A stretch of 33,946 nucleotides of DNA. It comes from a virus. Every line of letters starts with the position of its first letter. Position 1 is the first letter of the stretch. The notes beneath the pieces are model-generated. The model ran no database searches and was not told the DNA's origin. It worked only from the letters and a program-made list of their open reading frames with translations. The translations under genes were made by a program, and so were the position numbers. The stretch is taken from positions 1 through 33,946 of IMG/VR virus record IMGVR_UViG_3300025102_000127. One strand, written 5' to 3'. Positions 3,981 through 22,747 of this stretch are shown one piece after another.

Positions 3981-4376
3981 ATGGACGGAAAAGATTTAAA
4001 GAATAGAATTAAACAAATAATACGAGAAGAAGTTAATCAATTGATTAAAGAAGAATCGTATAAATTTGGAACACTAGCAGATCCTAAAGATATGGACCCA
4101 AACGACCCAATGGTAAAAGTATCTGGATTTGCAACTTTAAATCGATCGTCTATTAGAGGTCAGGTGGTAGATAGGTTATCTGGAGCATTAGCTACTGCAA
4201 AGGATGCAGCAAAAGGTGGACCTAATTCTTATCAAGCGTATAAACAATTACAAGATTTAATAAGTGACGCAGGTATATTATATAAATTAATTGGAGCAGA
4301 ATTAGATATAGCTAATCAATTAGAGTCAAAACGATTGAAAGGTGGTAGAAGGTCAATTCCAATTCCAAAACAATAA
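3981..4376 (+). CDS. probable virion protein with shared N-terminal helix
   Basis: The 131-residue protein starts with the helix IKQIIREEVNQLIKEE (about 10-25), closely similar to residues 10-25 of the 19780 protein and to the leaders at 342 and 4382. A short acidic, proline-containing segment (DPKDMDPNDPM) follows, then a helical domain with Ala/Gly-rich stretches and a basic C terminus (RLKGGRRSIPIPKQ). The leader suggests targeting to the same place as the other three proteins, probably the head; that is inference. The gene follows the previous stop by three bases (TAAACAATG). Confidence 0.7.
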   Translation: MDGKDLKNRIKQIIREEVNQLIKEESYKFGTLADPKDMDPNDPMVKVSGFATLNRSSIRGQVVDRLSGALATAKDAAKGGPNSYQAYKQLQDLISDAGILYKLIGAELDIANQLESKRLKGGRRSIPIPKQ

Positions 4377-4381
4377 TTATT

Positions 4382-4681
4382 ATGAAACGATCATATATTA
4401 AAGAATTAGTAAAAGAAGAATTACAAAAAATAAAAAACGAAGCTGCCGGAAGAGCAGTTTCAAGAGGTACGGTTACAGACAACACACGACTAGCAATGGT
4501 ATTATCCAGTCTAGGGAAACGTGCAAAAGGATCTTTCCAAAAAAGGAAAGTGGTTTCACAGGTGATATTGAAATTAGCTGCGGCATTGGAAATAACACCT
4601 AACGAAGTTTTAAGAGCTTACATAGATTATAAAAAAGATGCAAAAGGTGAAGCATCAACTAAGGTAAAAAAAGATGACTAA
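4382..4681 (+). CDS. small basic protein with shared N-terminal helix
   Basis: The 99-residue protein begins with IKELVKEELQKIKNEA at residues 6-21, in exact register with the 342 protein (both end the helix with NEA). The rest is basic and helical: AAGRAVSRGTV, LGKRAKGSFQKRK, then a helix QVILKLAAALEITPNEVLRAYIDYKK and a Lys-rich tail. If the leader is a cleaved targeting peptide, the remaining protein would be a roughly 78-residue basic helical protein, similar in character to T4 internal head proteins. It is the last gene before the promoter of the outer-membrane protein unit. Confidence 0.7.
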   Translation: MKRSYIKELVKEELQKIKNEAAGRAVSRGTVTDNTRLAMVLSSLGKRAKGSFQKRKVVSQVILKLAAALEITPNEVLRAYIDYKKDAKGEASTKVKKDD

Positions 4682-4684
4682 AGA

Positions 4685-4716
4685 TTTGGTACTTTGAATA
4701 ATATTTTATATATTAT
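4685..4716 (+). promoter_or_regulatory. host-type promoter TTTG-N20-TATATTAT
   Basis: TTTG (4685-4688) and TATATTAT (4709-4716) are separated by exactly 20 bases, the -33/-7 layout of Bacteroidota housekeeping promoters (consensus TTTG and TAnnTTTG). It starts four bases after the upstream stop codon and would give a leader of about 105 bases in front of the beta-barrel gene. Confidence 0.55.
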
Positions 4717-4733
4717 ACATAGTATTATGATTT

Positions 4734-4782
4734 AGGAGAAATTTACTCTACTCACGTGGAGTACATAAATTAGAGAGCTCCT
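4734..4782 (+). promoter_or_regulatory. folded 5' leader of the outer-membrane protein gene
   Basis: Three nested stems can form: AGGAG (4734-4738) with CTCCT (4778-4782), AATTTA (4740-4745) with TAAATT (4766-4771), and TACTC (4749-4753) with GAGTA (4759-4763), closing an ACGTG loop. An AGAGAG bulge lies on the 3' side. The AGGAG strand is not followed by a start codon, so this is not a sequestered ribosome site for a visible gene. It may stabilise or regulate the mRNA. Confidence 0.45.
4768..4780 (+). repeat. left arm of 13-bp inverted repeat around the outer-membrane protein gene
   Basis: AATTAGAGAGCTC is the exact reverse complement of GAGCTCTCTAATT at 5253-5265. The two arms bracket a single gene (4829-5236). 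This arm also overlaps the folded leader, so it could switch between the local hairpin and a long-range stem. Confidence 0.7.
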
Positions 4783-4792
4783 TACATAAAAA

Positions 4793-4804
4793 GCCAATAT
4801 TGGC
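4793..4804. repeat. 12-bp palindrome GCCAATATTGGC
   Basis: This is a perfect palindrome 24 bases before the ATG at 4829, just upstream of the AAAGGAG ribosome site. The same 12 bases recur at 11330-11341 at the end of uvsE. It could be a protein-binding site or a small hairpin. Confidence 0.6.
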
Positions 4805-4828
4805 ATAATAAAACAAAGGAGAAATTTT

Positions 4829-5236
4829 ATGAAAAATTTGATTTTAACATTAGCATTAGTTTTCGGTTTTACCGCAGCTAACGCTCAAACAGCAGGAGAC
4901 TGGTACGTAGGAACAGGTGATGTAGCAAATACAGCTTGGACTGAATGGTCAGTATCTCCAACAATTGGATATGGTGTAATGGAAAACCTAATGGTAGGTG
5001 CTTCAGTAAGCCAAGTAGATTCAACAGCAGATATGGATATAGACTTCCATGCAAGATATTTTGTAAAAGGATATTTTGCTTATTTAGCAACTGACGGTCT
5101 TTCTACGGAAGGAATGTCAATCGGAGCTGGTAAATTATTTACTTTAAGAAGTAATATTTACGTAGATCCTAAAATCGTTTATAATACAGGAACTAAGACT
5201 ACAAACCTTACATTAGGGTTTGGGTTTAAGTTTTAA
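4829..5236 (+). CDS. outer-membrane beta-barrel protein with signal peptide
   Basis: The 135-residue protein has a textbook Sec signal peptide (MKNLILTLALVFGFTAANA, predicted cleavage after ANA at 19/20), of the kind common in Flavobacteriia. The mature 116 residues consist of alternating polar/hydrophobic strands: WYVGTGDV, TEWSVSPTIGYGV, NLMVGASVSQV, MDIDFHARYFV, YFAYLATD, MSIGAGKLFTL, NIYVDPKIVYN and NLTLGFGFKF. The chain ends in a terminal Phe, the usual signal for outer-membrane insertion by BAM. Eight strands fit a small OmpX/OmpA-type barrel. It has AAAGGAG before the ATG, its own promoter and structured leader. A phage-made outer-membrane protein could block superinfection or alter host surface traffic. 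Exact family unknown. Confidence 0.82.
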   Translation: MKNLILTLALVFGFTAANAQTAGDWYVGTGDVANTAWTEWSVSPTIGYGVMENLMVGASVSQVDSTADMDIDFHARYFVKGYFAYLATDGLSTEGMSIGAGKLFTLRSNIYVDPKIVYNTGTKTTNLTLGFGFKF

Positions 5237-5252
5237 TTAAGTAACAGTAAAC

Positions 5253-5265
5253 GAGCTCTCTAATT
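5253..5265 (-). repeat. right arm of 13-bp inverted repeat
   Basis: GAGCTCTCTAATT pairs perfectly with 4768-4780. It lies 17 bases after the barrel gene's stop codon. Confidence 0.7.
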
Positions 5266-5266
5266 A

Positions 5267-5278
5267 GGCAATTTTGCC
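5267..5278 (+). repeat. small hairpin GGCAATTTTGCC
   Basis: GGCAA and TTGCC flank a TT loop directly after the right inverted-repeat arm. No T-run follows, so it is not an obvious terminator. Its position mirrors the palindrome at 4793-4804 that follows the left arm. Confidence 0.4.
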
Positions 5279-5310
5279 ACAAAACAATTAAATAAAAAAG
5301 AGGATAAATT

Positions 5311-5535
5311 ATGGATTCAGTAATTAAGTATGTAACCGGATTTTTCGGTGGATTGTTATCTATCATGATGGCAGTTATACCTGTATCAATCTTATGGTAT
5401 GTATTAACAGGTGGTGCTATATTTAACATGGATGTAGTAGCAAATCTTACAGCTTTAATCAATTCAATTGGTCAAGGTGGATTTGTTGGACTAGTAGTAT
5501 TAGTTATCTTAGTATCATTTTTTACTAAAAAATAA
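5311..5535 (+). CDS. small two-helix inner-membrane protein
   Basis: The 74-residue protein has two hydrophobic segments, about 8-34 (VTGFFGGLLSIMMAVIPVSI...) and about 55-71 (GGFVGLVVLVILVSFF), joined by a short loop with one Asp, and ends FFTKK. AGAGGATAAATT precedes the ATG. It shares the promoter and terminator of the outer-membrane protein gene, so the two are made together. Size and topology would also fit a class II holin, but holins normally sit with lysis genes and no endolysin is adjacent. A partner of the barrel protein is equally possible. Confidence 0.7.
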   Translation: MDSVIKYVTGFFGGLLSIMMAVIPVSILWYVLTGGAIFNMDVVANLTALINSIGQGGFVGLVVLVILVSFFTKK

Positions 5536-5558
5536 TTAGTTTAATTTGTTATATAATT

Positions 5559-5586
5559 AGAGAGGTGCACTTTTGTGCACCTTTCT
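5559..5586 (+). terminator. intrinsic terminator
   Basis: AGAGAGGTGCAC (5559-5570) pairs with GTGCACCTTTCT (5575-5586) as a 12-bp stem with one G-T pair and a TTTT loop, followed by a short pyrimidine-rich tail. It closes the transcription unit that starts at 4685. Confidence 0.8.
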
Positions 5587-5621
5587 TACTATAAACTTTT
5601 TCAAAAAAAGCTGGTAAAAGA

Positions 5622-5653
5622 TTTGGTTAATTGAGATTTTTTTCTTATCTTTA
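5622..5653 (+). promoter_or_regulatory. host-type promoter TTTG-N20-TATCTTTA
   Basis: TTTG (5622-5625) and TATCTTTA (5646-5653) are 20 bases apart, matching the Bacteroidota -33/-7 layout with one mismatch in the last base of the -7 box. It follows directly after the terminator and precedes the 5712 gene cluster. Confidence 0.6.
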
Positions 5654-5672
5654 TATAAATAAAAAAGGTAAG

Positions 5673-5694
5673 AGGTCTAGCCAGAAGTAGACCT
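5673..5694 (+). promoter_or_regulatory. leader hairpin
   Basis: AGGTCTA (5673-5679) pairs with TAGACCT (5688-5694) around an eight-base loop in the 5' leader of the 5712 gene. It is followed by TTAAAAATTAAAAA and the ATG rather than by a Shine-Dalgarno sequence. It may protect the mRNA end. Confidence 0.45.
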
Positions 5695-5711
5695 AAATTA
5701 AAAATTAAAAA

Positions 5712-5999
5712 ATGATAGTAAAAAGAAATTCAGTTCATGAAATGGTAGATGCCTTAAAAAATGTAGGGCCAATGACCGAAACAGAAATATTTAAAGCAGC
5801 ATTTGGATATGATAGAAATAATTCAATGCAATCAAATAAGAAATATGCAGATATGTTACGAAGAGGCATGAAGAAAGGTCTTATTGAAAGAGTAGAATGT
5901 GAAGGTCTTGGAAGAGCAAAGTTTGCATATTATGCTCCTAGAATAGAAGTACCTTGTTCTGCAACATTAGATAATGAATGGGCTAACGAATCTATATAA
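5712..5999 (+). CDS. winged-helix-like small protein
   Basis: The 95-residue protein has the helix pattern of a winged helix-turn-helix domain. Helix 1 is HEMVDALKNV, helix 2 is TETEIFKAAFG, and the recognition-like helix is NKKYADMLRRGMKKGLIERV. A short beta-wing (GLGRAKFAYYAPRI) follows. A DNA-binding regulator of early or middle genes is plausible. It is the first gene of the unit from the 5622 promoter, consistent with early expression. The start has no Shine-Dalgarno sequence but is preceded by A-rich TTAAAAATTAAAAA, as is usual for Bacteroidota translation starts. Confidence 0.68.
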   Translation: MIVKRNSVHEMVDALKNVGPMTETEIFKAAFGYDRNNSMQSNKKYADMLRRGMKKGLIERVECEGLGRAKFAYYAPRIEVPCSATLDNEWANESI

Positions 6000-6000
6000 T

Positions 6001-6480
6001 ATGAGTAAAGATAAATGGGTAATATTCGATTTAGATGGCACGTTAGCCAACATCGAAGTACGTAGAAAATTAGCATCTAAGTCTGGTAAAATGGATTGGG
6101 ATATATTTTTTTCAGATAAACTTGTTGCGTCTGATGAACCAAATCAACCAGTAATTATGATGGCTCAAGCGCTAAAAGCTTTTGGATATAAAATAGCAAT
6201 ATTTTCAGGTAGAAGTGCATCATCAGAACAAATTACTAAAGACTGGTTAAAAGAATATGAAGTTGAATATGATATATTAAAAATGCGTCCTATTAAACAT
6301 CCATTCAAATTTATGCCTGACGAAAAATTAAAATTAGGTTGGTTTGAAGAAGTATTTGTTAATCCTGAAGATATGGACGAAGTAGAAGTAGTAGCAGTAT
6401 TTGATGATAGAGATAAAGTAGTTAAGATGTGGAGAGAGATAGGTTTAACATGTATGCAAGTAGCACCAGGAAACTTTTAA
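6001..6480 (+). CDS. polynucleotide 3'-phosphatase, HAD family (T4 Pnkp C-terminal domain)
   Basis: I start the gene at ATG 6001, two bases after the previous stop (TAATATG), rather than at an upstream ATG at 5974 inside that gene. The 159-residue product has the HAD motifs: FDLDGTLA with nucleophile D10 and D12, FSGR (S69) as motif II, a Lys at about 111 as motif III, and DDRDKV (135-140) as motif IV. The C-terminal segment VVKMWREIGLTCMQVAPGNF is very close to the end of the T4 polynucleotide kinase/phosphatase. The 5'-kinase domain is absent, so this is a stand-alone 3'-end-healing phosphatase, likely for repair of nicked RNA or DNA. Confidence 0.85.
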   Translation: MSKDKWVIFDLDGTLANIEVRRKLASKSGKMDWDIFFSDKLVASDEPNQPVIMMAQALKAFGYKIAIFSGRSASSEQITKDWLKEYEVEYDILKMRPIKHPFKFMPDEKLKLGWFEEVFVNPEDMDEVEVVAVFDDRDKVVKMWREIGLTCMQVAPGNF

Positions 6481-9608: not shown

Positions 9609-9620
9609 TTGCGGGTTGGC
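9609..9620 (+). repeat. left arm of 12-bp inverted repeat around hsp20
   Basis: TTGCGGGTTGGC is the exact reverse complement of GCCAACCCGCAA at 10097-10108. The GC-rich arms stand out from their AT-rich surroundings and bracket exactly the hsp20 gene. Confidence 0.72.
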
Positions 9621-9674: not shown

Positions 9675-10088
9675 ATGACACAATTAACACATTTTGGCAC
9701 ATCGCCATTCGACATCCTGTTTAGGGATTTTTTCAAATCGGAGGAAGAATTTGCTCCGTTCAACCAAATCAGAGTTAACCATCCAGTAGATATATATGAG
9801 GCCAAAGATGGTCTTAATATTGATATTGCATGTGTTGGACTTACAAAAAAAGATATTGATCTTACTATAGAGGGAGATATCCTGCGAGTAGAGTATAAGA
9901 AAGATAAAGGCTCTAATGATGCAGAATACATTCAAAGAAATATTGCAAAGCGATCATTTAACTTTGGATGGAGAATTAGTAGAAGGTTCGAATTAGGTAA
10001 CCTAGAAGCTAAATTACAAAACGGTTTACTACATCTTTATGCACCGCTTGCTGAAGATCAAAAACCAAAATCAGTTACAATTAAGTAA
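9675..10088 (+). CDS. hsp20: small heat-shock protein Hsp20 (alpha-crystallin)
   Basis: The 137-residue protein is a small holding chaperone. The alpha-crystallin domain spans about 34-125: HPVDIYEAKDGLNIDIACVG, then DIDLTIEGDILRVEYKKD, the RSFNFGWRISRRFELG segment, and the signature AKLQNGLLHLYAP (112-124). The C-terminal VTI (134-136) is the IxI-type motif used for oligomer assembly. Hsp20 genes are common in marine T4-like phages, where a role in folding or assembly is supposed but not established. It has a good AAGGAG site and is bracketed by an inverted repeat. Confidence 0.92.
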   Translation: MTQLTHFGTSPFDILFRDFFKSEEEFAPFNQIRVNHPVDIYEAKDGLNIDIACVGLTKKDIDLTIEGDILRVEYKKDKGSNDAEYIQRNIAKRSFNFGWRISRRFELGNLEAKLQNGLLHLYAPLAEDQKPKSVTIK

Positions 10089-10096
10089 ATAATTAT

Positions 10097-10108
10097 GCCA
10101 ACCCGCAA
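10097..10108 (-). repeat. right arm of 12-bp inverted repeat
   Basis: GCCAACCCGCAA pairs perfectly with 9609-9620, starting eight bases after the hsp20 stop. It is followed by the palindrome GGTTTAAACC (10115-10124), then CTGGTTAT (10124-10131), which is also a direct repeat of 9620-9627. Confidence 0.72.
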
Positions 10109-10382: not shown

Positions 10383-11354
10383 ATGAATAAAAAGGTAAGA
10401 CTAGGTTATGCTTGCGTTAATATGACATTAACGAATAGACCTAAAAAAGCAGGAGGTAGAGTAACTACTTCTAGGACGGCACGAAAAGCAACGTGGTATC
10501 CCGATCGTAATTATGAACTAATAGGTGAACGTGCCTTAAAGAATGCAACTGATTTATTACACTATTTACAATGGAATATTGAACATGATATAACATTGTT
10601 TAGAATAGGTTCTGAATTATTTCCATGGCATGATCATTATGAACTAAATCAATTACCTCAAATCAAAGAAATCTCTGATAGATTATATGAAGCCGGCGAA
10701 TATGCTCGTAAACATAATATGAGGTTAACTACACATCCAGGACCATTCCATGTATTAGGTTCTCCAAGACCAGATGTTGTAGAAAAATCTATTATAGGTT
10801 TAGAACGTCATTCAGAAATGTTTGACCTAATGGGTTATAAACCTTCTTTTGAAAATAAAATAAATATTCATGTAGGAGGTGCATATGGTGACCATAAATC
10901 AACGGCCGAACGATGGATTAAGACGTGGCATAGATTATCAGACAATCTTAAGTCTAGATTAGTTTTAGAAAATGATGATAAGGCTAGTATGTGGTCAACA
11001 AAAATGATATATGATTATTTCTATAAAGAAATTGGAATTCCAATTACATTTGATTATCATCATCATACATTCCATCCAGATGAGTTATCAGAAGAAGAAG
11101 CTTTACGGTTAGCAGCTAGTACATGGCCAGAAGATGTTAGACAATGTTGTCATTATTCGGAAAGTAGAGCTCGTGAATACCAAGATGATAAGATTAGAAA
11201 ACAAGCACATTCAGATTATATCCGCGATGAGATTAGAACATATGGATTAGATTTAGATATAGTAGTTGAAGCAAAAGCCAAAGAATTGGCAGTTTTAGAA
11301 CATAGAAGTTTATATAGACAAAAAAATAGGCCAATATTGGCCGGAGTTAGTTAA
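10383..11354 (+). CDS. uvsE: UV damage endonuclease UvsE/UvdE
   Basis: The 323-residue protein is a TIM-barrel, metal-dependent nuclease that nicks DNA 5' to UV photoproducts. Family motifs appear in order: VRLGYACVN (5-13), LFRIGSELFPW (72-82), RLTTHPG (114-120, H118), INIHVGGAYGDH (160-171, H163), LVLENDDK (193-200, E196), ITFDYHHHTFHP (221-232, D224, H226-H228) and CHYSESR (256-262, H257), with H276 further on. These supply the expected three-metal cluster of His, Glu and Asp ligands. Length is normal for the family. Phages of surface-water bacteria often carry photolesion repair genes, so the context fits a marine phage. Confidence 0.93.
   Translation: MNKKVRLGYACVNMTLTNRPKKAGGRVTTSRTARKATWYPDRNYELIGERALKNATDLLHYLQWNIEHDITLFRIGSELFPWHDHYELNQLPQIKEISDRLYEAGEYARKHNMRLTTHPGPFHVLGSPRPDVVEKSIIGLERHSEMFDLMGYKPSFENKINIHVGGAYGDHKSTAERWIKTWHRLSDNLKSRLVLENDDKASMWSTKMIYDYFYKEIGIPITFDYHHHTFHPDELSEEEALRLAASTWPEDVRQCCHYSESRAREYQDDKIRKQAHSDYIRDEIRTYGLDLDIVVEAKAKELAVLEHRSLYRQKNRPILAGVS
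11330..11341. repeat. 12-bp palindrome GCCAATATTGGC (second copy)
   Basis: This is identical to 4793-4804. Here it is extended to GGCCAATATTGGCC (11329-11342) and lies in the last codons of uvsE. Confidence 0.6.
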
Positions 11355-13243: not shown

Positions 13244-13885
13244 ATGAGTGATTTATATAACGAGCGACCAATCAAACCAAAACAACAAGAAGAATTAATT
13301 CAGCCAACTCAAGAGGTATCACCATACCAAGAATTGAATGATATATTAGCTAATCAAATTGAATTAGATGATTCTGTCATTTATCTTAATGATGAAATAG
13401 AAAGTCATTCTTTATTTGATTTGATGATTCGTGTTAGGCGTATATTAAAATATAGACAAACACCAGCATATAAAGGAGATCCAAATGCCCCAGTTAATTT
13501 AATGATAAATAGTCCAGGAGGAGATATTCATGAAATGATGGGAATTATTGATTACTTAAAATCATTAGATGTAAAAGTAAATACTATATGCAGAGGCAAA
13601 GCCTTTTCAGCCGCATCTGTTATATTAACATGTGGTACAGGAATGAGAATGGTTAGTAAAAACTCAACCATAATGTTTCATCAAGCATCTTCAATGATAT
13701 CAGGTAAGTTGACAGACGTAACAGCAACTGTAGATTTTGTTAAACAAGTTGAACAAGATATATATGATTTGTTAGCAGATAAAACAAAAAAAGATGCAGC
13801 ATGGTGGAAAGATCAAATGAGAACGGATATGTATTTAACTTCAGGCCAAGCATTAGACTTAGGCGTAATTGACCAAATAATTTAA
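13244..13885 (+). CDS. clpP: ClpP-type serine protease
   Basis: The 213-residue protein is a complete S14-family protease. VNLMINSPGGDIHEMMGI (84-101) forms the oxyanion strand, GKAFSAAS (118-125) contains nucleophile S122, MFHQAS (144-149) contains H146, and RTDMYLTSGQALDLGVID has D195 as the third triad member. The N-terminal extension of about 45 residues is longer than in host ClpP. ClpP-fold enzymes serve as prohead maturation proteases in several phages, but this copy is far from any visible capsid gene and could instead work with host ClpX-like unfoldases. Its operon partners are an HD hydrolase and the late sigma factor. Confidence 0.9.
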   Translation: MSDLYNERPIKPKQQEELIQPTQEVSPYQELNDILANQIELDDSVIYLNDEIESHSLFDLMIRVRRILKYRQTPAYKGDPNAPVNLMINSPGGDIHEMMGIIDYLKSLDVKVNTICRGKAFSAASVILTCGTGMRMVSKNSTIMFHQASSMISGKLTDVTATVDFVKQVEQDIYDLLADKTKKDAAWWKDQMRTDMYLTSGQALDLGVIDQII

Positions 13886-14693: not shown

Positions 14694-14977
14694 TAACAAC
14701 AATAATAATATTAGCGGTTGCATTAACAATATCACTATTTGTTAATATAAACCAATTAAAAAAACAAGAAGATCAATCAGATTATATTGAGGATCTAGAA
14801 AAATCAAATCTAGATTACTATAACTTTTTTGATGGATTAAAAACAAAAATTAATGAAGCCAACTCTGAAATACGAAATGCTGATAGACAAGGAGCATTTG
14901 AAGCATCAGACGAAGTAGGCACTTCCTTTAAGTTAATCAAAGAAGTAATGGAAGACCTAAATCGTGGAGTTAACTAA
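14690..14977 (+). CDS. small single-pass membrane protein
   Basis: The 95-residue protein has one N-terminal membrane segment (ITTIIILAVALTISLFVNI, 2-20) followed by a soluble helical domain (about 22-95) with coiled-coil character. It overlaps the HD gene by four bases and the sigma-factor gene by one base (TAATG), so all three are coupled in translation. A membrane-anchored accessory role is possible; the function is unknown. Confidence 0.7.
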   Translation: MITTIIILAVALTISLFVNINQLKKQEDQSDYIEDLEKSNLDYYNFFDGLKTKINEANSEIRNADRQGAFEASDEVGTSFKLIKEVMEDLNRGVN

Positions 14978-15780: not shown

Positions 15781-15785
15781 TTGTA

Positions 15786-15800
15786 CATATTTATTTTAAA
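15786..15800 (+). promoter_or_regulatory. late-type promoter motif (copy 4)
   Basis: CATATTTATTTTAAA starts five bases after the sigma-factor stop codon and ends 11 bases before ATG 15812, with GGGAAT between. It heads the baseplate hub operon. Confidence 0.62.
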
Positions 15801-15811
15801 GGGAATAAACT

Positions 15812-20866: not shown

Positions 20867-22747
20867 ATGGCAGAATTAGTTAAAAAAGATATAAAATATT
20901 TAAGTAGGGATTTTGGTGAATTTAGACAAAATTTAGTTAACTTCGCAAAAAATTATTTTCCAAATACTTATAATGATTTTAATGAATCATCACCAGGAAT
21001 GATGTTCATGGAAATGTCGGCTTATATAGGCGATGTATTATCATATTATTCAGATAGTAATCTTAAAGAATCATTACTGGGATATGCAGAAGAAAGAGCA
21101 AATATTAATTCTATTGCAGCGGCATTAGGATATAAAACAAAAAATATGATATCATCATTAGTAGAATTGGATGTATATCAAACAGTGCCAGCAACTGGTA
21201 CAGGTGTTAATGCAAAACCAGATTGGAGATATGCATTAAATATTGAAGCAGGAATGATTGCAAAATCAAATACAGGTGTTGAATTTAGATCAGTTGATCC
21301 AGTAGATTTTGGCGCAACAGGTTCAGCAACTAATCCTAGAACAGTAACTGTATATCAAATTGATGAAGCAACTGGAACACCAACATATTTCTTAATCAAG
21401 AAAAAAGTTGCAGCTGTATCAGGAGGAATAACACAAGAAGATTTCAGATTTCAAGAACCTAAAATATATGATAAGATAGTATTGAAAGATACAGATATAA
21501 TTGATGTAGTTGATATTATTGATGAACAAGGTAATAAGTGGTATGAGGTTCCGTATTTAGCTCAGGATACAATTCAAGAAGGTATTAGAAATACACCAAT
21601 GATAGATCCAGAACTAAGTTCTTATAATAGTAGTGTACCATATATCTTAAAATTAAGACGAACAGCTAAAAGATTTGTAACAAGATTTAGAGCAGATAAA
21701 CAATTAGAAATTCAATTTGGTGCAGGTATATCTGAAGAACATGATAGAGATTTAATACCAAATCCAGAAAATGTTGGATTAGGAATAAAAGGATTAAATA
21801 GAGAAGTTGATGTATCAATTGATCCTGCAAACTTTTTATATTCAAGTACATATGGACAAGCACCTTCACAAACTACCTTAACAGTTCGTTACTCAAGAGG
21901 TAAAGGACTTTCAGATAATGTACCGGCTAATTCAATACAAGAAGTTTCATTTGCATCTTATGCAAATTCAATCCAAAATTTAGATACATCAATATTAAAT
22001 CAAGCAAAAGGATCGGTAGCAGTAAATAATCCATTACCTTCTAGAGGAGGAGCTTCTGCAGAGTCAGTAGAAACTACAAGACAAAAAGCATTAAGTGTAT
22101 TTGCAGCACAAAATAGAGCAGTAACAAAAGAAGATTATATCTTAAGATGTTATACCATGCCACCAAAATTTGGACATGTAGCTAAAGCATATATTATTCA
22201 AGATGAACAAGTAGATTCAACAGATCCTGAAGCTAAAATACCTAATCCATTAGCAATGAACATATATGCAATGGGATATAATTCTACCAAACAATTGGTA
22301 GCTCTGAATCCTGCTATTAAACAAAATCTTAAAACATATATATCACAGTTTAGATTAATGACGGATGCAATTAATATTAAGAATTGTTTTATTGTTAATT
22401 TAGGTATTGATTTTGAAGTAATACCAAAACCAACCTTTAATGGTTCTGAAGTAGTATTAAGATGTGTAAATAAACTTAAAGAATTATTACATGTAGATAA
22501 TATGCAGATTAATGCACCTATTGTAATTTCCGATGTTTATACAAAGTTAGATAATGTCGAAGGAGTACAAACGGTTGCAGATGTAACGATAAAAAATCTA
22601 TATGATTTAAACTCAGGATATTCAGGAAATGTATATGATATCAAAGCTGCAACATTAAATAATATAATTTATCCATCATTAGATCCATGTATATTTGAAA
22701 TTAGATATCCTAATTCAGATATCAAAGGTAGAATTGTAGGAATATAA
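20867..22747 (+). CDS. 6: baseplate wedge protein gp6-like (baseplate J family)
   Basis: The 626-residue protein matches T4 gp6/baseplate-J. The N-terminal KKDIKYLSRDFGEFRQNLVNF and the helical SSPGMMFMEMSAYIGDVLSY / LLGYAEERANINSIAAALGY region (about 40-95) are characteristic. The J-type motif NRAVTKEDYILRC lies at about 416-428. The C-terminal half (FIVNLGIDFEVIPKP, VLRCVNKLKELLHVDN, NAPIVISDVYTKLDNVEGVQ) matches the dimerisation part that closes the wedge ring. TAAGGGAATAACC supplies the ribosome site. Length is close to T4 gp6. Confidence 0.92.
   Translation: MAELVKKDIKYLSRDFGEFRQNLVNFAKNYFPNTYNDFNESSPGMMFMEMSAYIGDVLSYYSDSNLKESLLGYAEERANINSIAAALGYKTKNMISSLVELDVYQTVPATGTGVNAKPDWRYALNIEAGMIAKSNTGVEFRSVDPVDFGATGSATNPRTVTVYQIDEATGTPTYFLIKKKVAAVSGGITQEDFRFQEPKIYDKIVLKDTDIIDVVDIIDEQGNKWYEVPYLAQDTIQEGIRNTPMIDPELSSYNSSVPYILKLRRTAKRFVTRFRADKQLEIQFGAGISEEHDRDLIPNPENVGLGIKGLNREVDVSIDPANFLYSSTYGQAPSQTTLTVRYSRGKGLSDNVPANSIQEVSFASYANSIQNLDTSILNQAKGSVAVNNPLPSRGGASAESVETTRQKALSVFAAQNRAVTKEDYILRCYTMPPKFGHVAKAYIIQDEQVDSTDPEAKIPNPLAMNIYAMGYNSTKQLVALNPAIKQNLKTYISQFRLMTDAINIKNCFIVNLGIDFEVIPKPTFNGSEVVLRCVNKLKELLHVDNMQINAPIVISDVYTKLDNVEGVQTVADVTIKNLYDLNSGYSGNVYDIKAATLNNIIYPSLDPCIFEIRYPNSDIKGRIVGI

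Follow-up and report, generated by a model that had tools for sequence, protein, structure and literature searches.

Complementary arms enclose an outer-membrane barrel gene and a small heat-shock protein gene in a group of related phages

Introduction

What does a marine phage gain from placing a gene for a predicted outer-membrane protein between two complementary sequences? The locus that raises this question lies on a 33.9-kb virus fragment from IMG/VR, the whole of which we analysed and refer to as the window. It contains omp, which encodes the predicted barrel, and a gene for a small membrane protein (Table 1). The initial annotation read this locus as an independently expressed moron and mentioned inverted repeats in passing; that reading did not include the gene-enclosing stem, nor the further example of it at hsp20. 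We regard the conserved RNA stem, which encloses two gene families of one phage group, as a more interesting feature than the barrel. Long-range 5'-3' pairing over a bacterial ORF is known from few single cases; in these phages compensatory changes have preserved one and the same architecture, at two unrelated genes, across many genomes. The stem ties a chaperone gene and an outer-membrane protein gene, whose products probably act on host physiology, through one expression mode. A literature search reaching few subscription journals found no earlier description of gene-enclosing stems in phages.

Results and discussion

Source of the DNA

The window carries a baseplate-wedge gene at 20867 (PHROG 219). 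In this gene it is closest, among named phages, to Microcystis phage Mel-JY01 (48% identity), followed by the Flavobacterium immuto phages (42%). Both omp and hsp20 are absent from the two nearest named phages. A sister IMG/VR contig of 103 kb is identical in sequence to the window over the compared region (L002, L107). By Pfam, the window also encodes a UvdE-type UV endonuclease (10383-11354), a Clp-type protease (13244-13885) and a PNKP-type phosphatase (6013-6480). A GTDB metagenome-assembled genome labelled Candidatus Nitrosopelagicus includes a contig syntenic to the window phage (L067), which is probably a misbinned phage contig.

Table 1. Features of the omp and hsp20 loci and of the second omp site, in window coordinates.
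Feature	Position	Strand	Basis
Promoter-like motif TTTGGTACTTTGAATAATATTTTATATAT, phage class, site I only	4685..4713	+	Recurs in window and sister contig
5' leader hairpin	4744..4763	+	RNA fold; hairpin of different sequence here in other site I relatives
5' arm of omp closing stem, AATTAGAGAGCTC	4768..4780	+	13/13 complementary to 5253-5265; covariation; fold
Small hairpin GCCAATATTGGC upstream of ribosome-binding site	4793..4804	+	Sequence, fold
Shine-Dalgarno-like AAAGGAG of omp	4815..4821	+	Sequence; most window genes lack one
omp, secreted predicted 8-stranded outer-membrane barrel, 135 aa	4829..5236	+	ORF, homologue alignment, structure prediction, Foldseek
3' arm of omp closing stem, GAGCTCTCTAATT	5253..5265	+	Complement of 4768-4780
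Hairpin GGCAATTTTGCC before 74-aa gene	5267..5278	+	Near-invariant in relatives with the stem
Shine-Dalgarno-like AGAGGA of 74-aa gene	5299..5304	+	Sequence
Small membrane protein, 74 aa, constant partner of omp	5311..5535	+	ORF, hydrophobic helices
Terminator-like hairpin AGGTGCAC-TTTT-GTGCACCT, T-rich tail	5563..5582	+	Repeat search; equivalents behind unit in relatives
5' arm of hsp20 closing stem, TTGCGGGTTGGC	9609..9620	+	12/12 complementary to 10097-10108; z -4.0; covariation
hsp20 (small heat-shock protein)	9675..10088	+	Pfam HSP20, E 1.4e-9
3' arm of hsp20 closing stem, GCCAACCCGCAA	10097..10108	+	As for 9609-9620 arm
Site II, empty in window phage	15781..15811	+	omp unit at equivalent position in many relatives

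The barrel protein

The initial annotation had called the omp product an outer-membrane beta-barrel and proposed a structure prediction and a comparison with OmpX-type proteins; both bore the identification out. The signal peptide ends in A-N-A before a Gln and the C-terminal residue is Phe, and these two residues (Q20 and F135) are invariant among 43 homologues. With the same homologues as input, AlphaFold2 gave a model with eight strands (pLDDT 77, pTM 0.68), within most of which hydrophobicity alternates, and with predicted loops that are short, the longest about 8 residues. The best solved-structure matches of this model in Foldseek were de novo designed transmembrane barrels, OmpX, the OprF N-domain and Ail. 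As modelled, the protein thus combines the signal peptide, eight amphipathic strands and C-terminal aromatic residue of OmpX/OMP_b-brl type barrels. It shares the eight-stranded fold with OmpX, the OprF N-domain and the designed barrels but is shorter (mature length about 115 residues), with short loops. By sequence it matched no PDB chain, and it scored 14.3 bits against Pfam PF13505, below the curated cutoff of 28.7, so that it is PF13505-like yet not filed as a member. Matches to the model in BFVD are widespread and are phage proteins already annotated as outer-membrane barrels; phage barrels are therefore a kind already known. The most likely destination of the protein is the outer membrane of the host, where it would change surface or permeability.

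A single-protein scan found relatives of omp on 65 IMG/VR contigs and on none of 50,697 GenBank phage records; its 74-aa partner likewise had no match in GenBank phages. GTDB genomes gave two matches, one of them probably a misbinned phage because it is filed under Nitrosopelagicus. An omp profile matched in 58 of 198 genomes sampled from the order to which a Flavobacteriales metagenome-assembled genome belongs. Six of the Flavobacteriales matches (L132-L137) are proteins of 132-142 aa whose signal end and C-terminus are like those of omp. They align over most of omp with profile E values of about 1e-8 to 1e-11 and share the A-Q signal end, a Y[VI]EPNY motif and a C-terminal RF. They differ from phage omp in that identity is low and in that their genes have no GC-bearing flanking stem, the best helices being A/T-run matches. 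From these sequence likenesses, the phage barrel and a small outer-membrane protein of Flavobacteriales-type hosts probably share common descent.

A two-gene unit at two genome sites

The 74-aa gene lies downstream of omp in nearly all loci, and its product is helical in a low-confidence structure model. Relatives of the unit that we read carry an equivalent hairpin and T-run at its 3' end, a terminator being usual and not constant; the window hairpin at 5563-5582 was not among the hits of a consensus terminator scan. Most omp loci lie at one of two places. The window represents site I; site II, the commonest, lies between homologues of the window genes at 14977 and 15812. The annotated two-gene unit with a terminator is supported, as a transplantable module that occurs at no fewer than two unrelated genome sites. 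The term moron holds in part. The unit separates genes that are direct neighbours in phages without it there (site II is empty in the window and occupied in relatives) and has a terminator, but at site II a promoter is not part of it. Its wide occurrence across the phage group of the window also makes it a poor match for a moron understood as sporadic cargo.

As a separate observation, 5256-5266, overlapping the omp 3' arm, could also pair over 11 bp with TAATTAGAGAG at 5554-5564, just upstream of the terminator, to give an alternative stem around the 74-aa gene in the window.

Promoter and leader

A host-type promoter at 4685-4716 had been proposed for the unit. The Bacteroidota -7 element is TAnnTTTG, and this box does not occur within 4600-4829; sigma-70-like sites in the omp region numbered 16, against 17.6 expected from shuffles. 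The sequence at 4685 belongs instead to a motif class, TT[AT]GG...GA...TTATATAT, with copies at 4685, 5622 and 6500 and seven more in the sister contig of 103 kb. Its copies always precede ORFs, which makes it resemble a class of phage promoters, and for these reasons we rejected the host-type promoter; the motif was derived from its own sites, which makes a shuffle count no independent test of it. A similar motif stands at site I of relatives. At site II the 5' arm either overlaps the upstream stop codon or starts no more than a few bases from it. This leaves no room for a promoter, which is the situation in most relatives; the unit must there be read through from the upstream gene, and the promoter is not part of the unit. 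Expression independent of phage timing from a host-type promoter of its own, as first annotated, is not supported. The leader does fold, as had been noted.

A second sequence class, the box ATATTTAT[AT][AT][AT]A, occurs shortly upstream of many starts (window 301, 2162, 3538, 15787, 19749 and 31610), at 11-32 copies per long contig and mostly before ORFs. To judge from this placement it looks like a phage late promoter. Known RNA families gave no hit over the gathering cutoff in 4300-6000.

A stem encloses omp and hsp20

The inverted repeats named in the initial annotation are far above chance. We computed the duplex energy between the 100 nt upstream and the 70 nt downstream of each of 42 window genes and compared it with shuffles. 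The flanking duplex was significant for only two of them, omp (z -3.6) and hsp20 (z -4.0), the next gene scoring -2.1. The hsp20 repeat is GC-rich, 12 bp long and of the same architecture as that around omp. In whole-region folds the omp arms paired with probabilities of 0.83-1.0, and 11 of the 12 hsp20 pairs formed with probabilities of 0.99-1.0.

Relatives keep the pairing while the arms change. The omp arms fall into several unrelated sequence classes (GAGAGCTC, CGAAAGCATG, GCGCGATG, ATGAGAG and AATGAAGAGC), and each complements its own 3' partner. Cognate arms pair far better than arms of different classes. Once same-class combinations were excluded, the cognate helix score was attained by 36 of 2308 non-cognate pairings, and in 32 of the 43 omp units the cognate pair outscored every non-cognate one. 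We examined 28 hsp20 units of related phages, and every one had complementary arms, again of several unrelated classes; those in four long contigs are mutually unrelated and pair over 12-16 bp, and hsp20 homologues of 45% identity (L089, L090) also have paired arms. In units with a DUF2061 gene after hsp20, it is the DUF2061 gene that the 3' arm follows. The four long contigs hold few further repeats around ORFs, and none of these recur between genomes. We also tried cyanophage hsp20 genes as stem carriers and rejected them, none of the five phages tested having a stem (helix p 0.28-0.74).

In the units, about 20-70 nt separate the 5' arm from the start, and the 3' arm follows the last stop after 3 to about 30 nt. 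The two small hairpins of the omp unit cross-pair. In other phage lineages a dozen omp loci have no stem, a point against the model set out below. Some lineages carry omp with neither a Shine-Dalgarno (SD) sequence nor the stem, which suggests that the stem is there for expression and not for the protein itself.

The pairing appears to be maintained in the sense RNA

In alignments of homologous arms, cells in which both partners had changed and the pair was kept numbered 12 for hsp20 and 8 for omp, counts that none of 500 shuffles reached in either family and that shared ancestry inflates; shifting the alignment register destroyed the signal. The number of pairs with double changes was a weaker measure, 18 of 500 shuffles reaching the observed value for hsp20 and 185 of 500 for omp. 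Departures from Watson-Crick pairing among 50 distinct arm pairs were G.U in 17 cases and A.C in one (P about 7e-5 under symmetry, a value that ignores shared ancestry and is inflated by it). This ratio points to selection on the coding-strand RNA rather than to DNA symmetry. The computations support arms that are free to vary in sequence while pairing is kept and the SD stays outside the helix, and the pairing appears to be under selection in the sense RNA.

The same ratio weighs on a reading at the level of DNA, in which the arms would be the ends of a mobile cassette or of an invertible element. In favour of it, the genome position of the unit varies, and copies from site I and site II become homologous near the 5' arm. 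DNA symmetry does not predict a G.U to A.C ratio of 17:1, however, the omp 3' arm is internal to the unit that moves, upstream of its second gene, the arm sequences differ freely among relatives, and the omp copies read all have a single orientation relative to neighbouring homologues. We disfavour this reading, chiefly for the ratio and the position of the 3' arm, and consider it highly improbable.

That the repeats are conserved through compensation also tells against taking them as incidental to an independently expressed moron whose barrel would exclude superinfecting phages or mask receptors. The barrel, the partner gene and the terminator of that model are real, and phage barrels are common in BFVD, but it lacks its host-type promoter, site II leaves no space for one, and the loops of the modelled barrel are short. 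We think it very unlikely.

What the stem may do

The closing stem is well supported, and its function is what we infer from it. In the omp mRNA the 5' UTR would pair with sequence just past the stop codon and close the ORF in a loop; hsp20, with or without the DUF2061 gene, would be closed in an identical manner. The stem could then seal the ends of the ORF-bearing RNA, shield it from end-dependent decay and insulate the unit from the neighbouring transcript, and the sealed message might give strong or lasting expression during infection. With slightly better than even confidence, we favour a transplantable unit with an mRNA-closing stem around omp, and the same stem around hsp20, that seals or insulates the message and slows its decay. 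A more general version, that the arms are a portable, sequence-independent device that turns cargo placed between them into a sealed, long-lived and possibly re-initiating message, with two unrelated cargo families so far, we hold tentatively, at somewhat less than even confidence. If it stabilises messages, the stem is a compact natural expression element. Since the architecture is kept by compensatory change in many phages, its function is directly testable with arm-swap and compensatory mutants.

Protection is suggested by the hbs mRNA of Bacillus subtilis, in which pairing of about 14 nt between 5' and 3' UTR across a short ORF guards the mRNA from RNase Y (Braun et al. 2017, as described in PMC7821165). 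By this analogy stability would be the most likely function of the phage stem. The likeness is that two UTRs of one mRNA pair over a short ORF, here with omp and hsp20 arms found computationally to be complementary in cis. The differences are that protection of the mRNA is described for hbs and would be presumed for the phage stem, and that hbs is a single host gene, whereas the phage stem occurs in many phages around two unrelated gene families, its arms remade and its pairing kept. According to the same review, close relatives do not conserve the hbs 3' UTR, and conservation of such 3' UTRs is poor (PMC7821165).

The icaR mRNA of Staphylococcus aureus is a second case of long-range cis pairing over an ORF. 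Its 5'-3' UTR pairing sets a UCCCC motif against the Shine-Dalgarno sequence and represses, and RNase III cuts the duplex (PMC3868564). The icaR helix covers the SD; in the phage stem the SD lies outside, and the helix is longer and free in sequence. In the window the 5' arms stop at least 35 (omp) and 54 (hsp20) nt short of the SD-containing start regions or ATG, and the SD is unpaired with the arms in both units.

A duplex open to RNase III, as in icaR, raises the alternative that the enzyme cuts both arms of the phage stem and frees a one- or two-gene mRNA from a polycistronic phage transcript. Precursors of rRNA are excised in a comparable way from stems that bracket 16S and 23S RNA. There, as in the phages, inverted repeats bracket one functional RNA segment and are conserved as pairing over sequence; the phage segment differs in being protein-coding, and its cleavage is hypothetical. 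The extended arm duplexes, at about 17-30 pairs with internal loops included, suit the enzyme, as does the read-through at site II. Many of the perfect helices, in contrast, are no longer than 10-16 bp. Many hsp20 5' arms, moreover, start 7-21 nt after a late-promoter-like A/T box, so that they may lie near the RNA 5' end, leaving little to trim. We rate processing by RNase III as unlikely.

The arms are placed so that ribosomes at initiation and termination would be expected not quite to cover them. This would suit another role, in which the stem holds the stop codon close to the ribosome-binding site and terminating ribosomes re-initiate on their own message. Both omp and hsp20 have an SD, unlike most window genes, as this would favour; we know of no demonstrated bacterial case of closed-loop re-initiation by such a stem, and we consider this role quite unlikely. 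Two points count against the stem model itself: translating ribosomes may open the 3' arm, and some arms have only 8-10 bp without mismatch. A long-range intrinsic terminator was rejected, T-runs following some hsp20 3' arms (L018, L051, L120) and not the two in the window.

Two minor observations concern the closed units. SD-like sequences (4815-4821, 5299-5304 and upstream of 9675) belong to a minority of window genes but to all genes of closed units; SD use is thought rare in flavobacterial hosts, and its presence here may matter in such a host. On contig G002 (L101:9825-10564), away from hsp20, an inverted repeat GGGTTCCTTGTGA/TCACAAGGAGTTC surrounds a DUF2061-like gene and another ORF, and by its sequence this is possibly a third closed unit.
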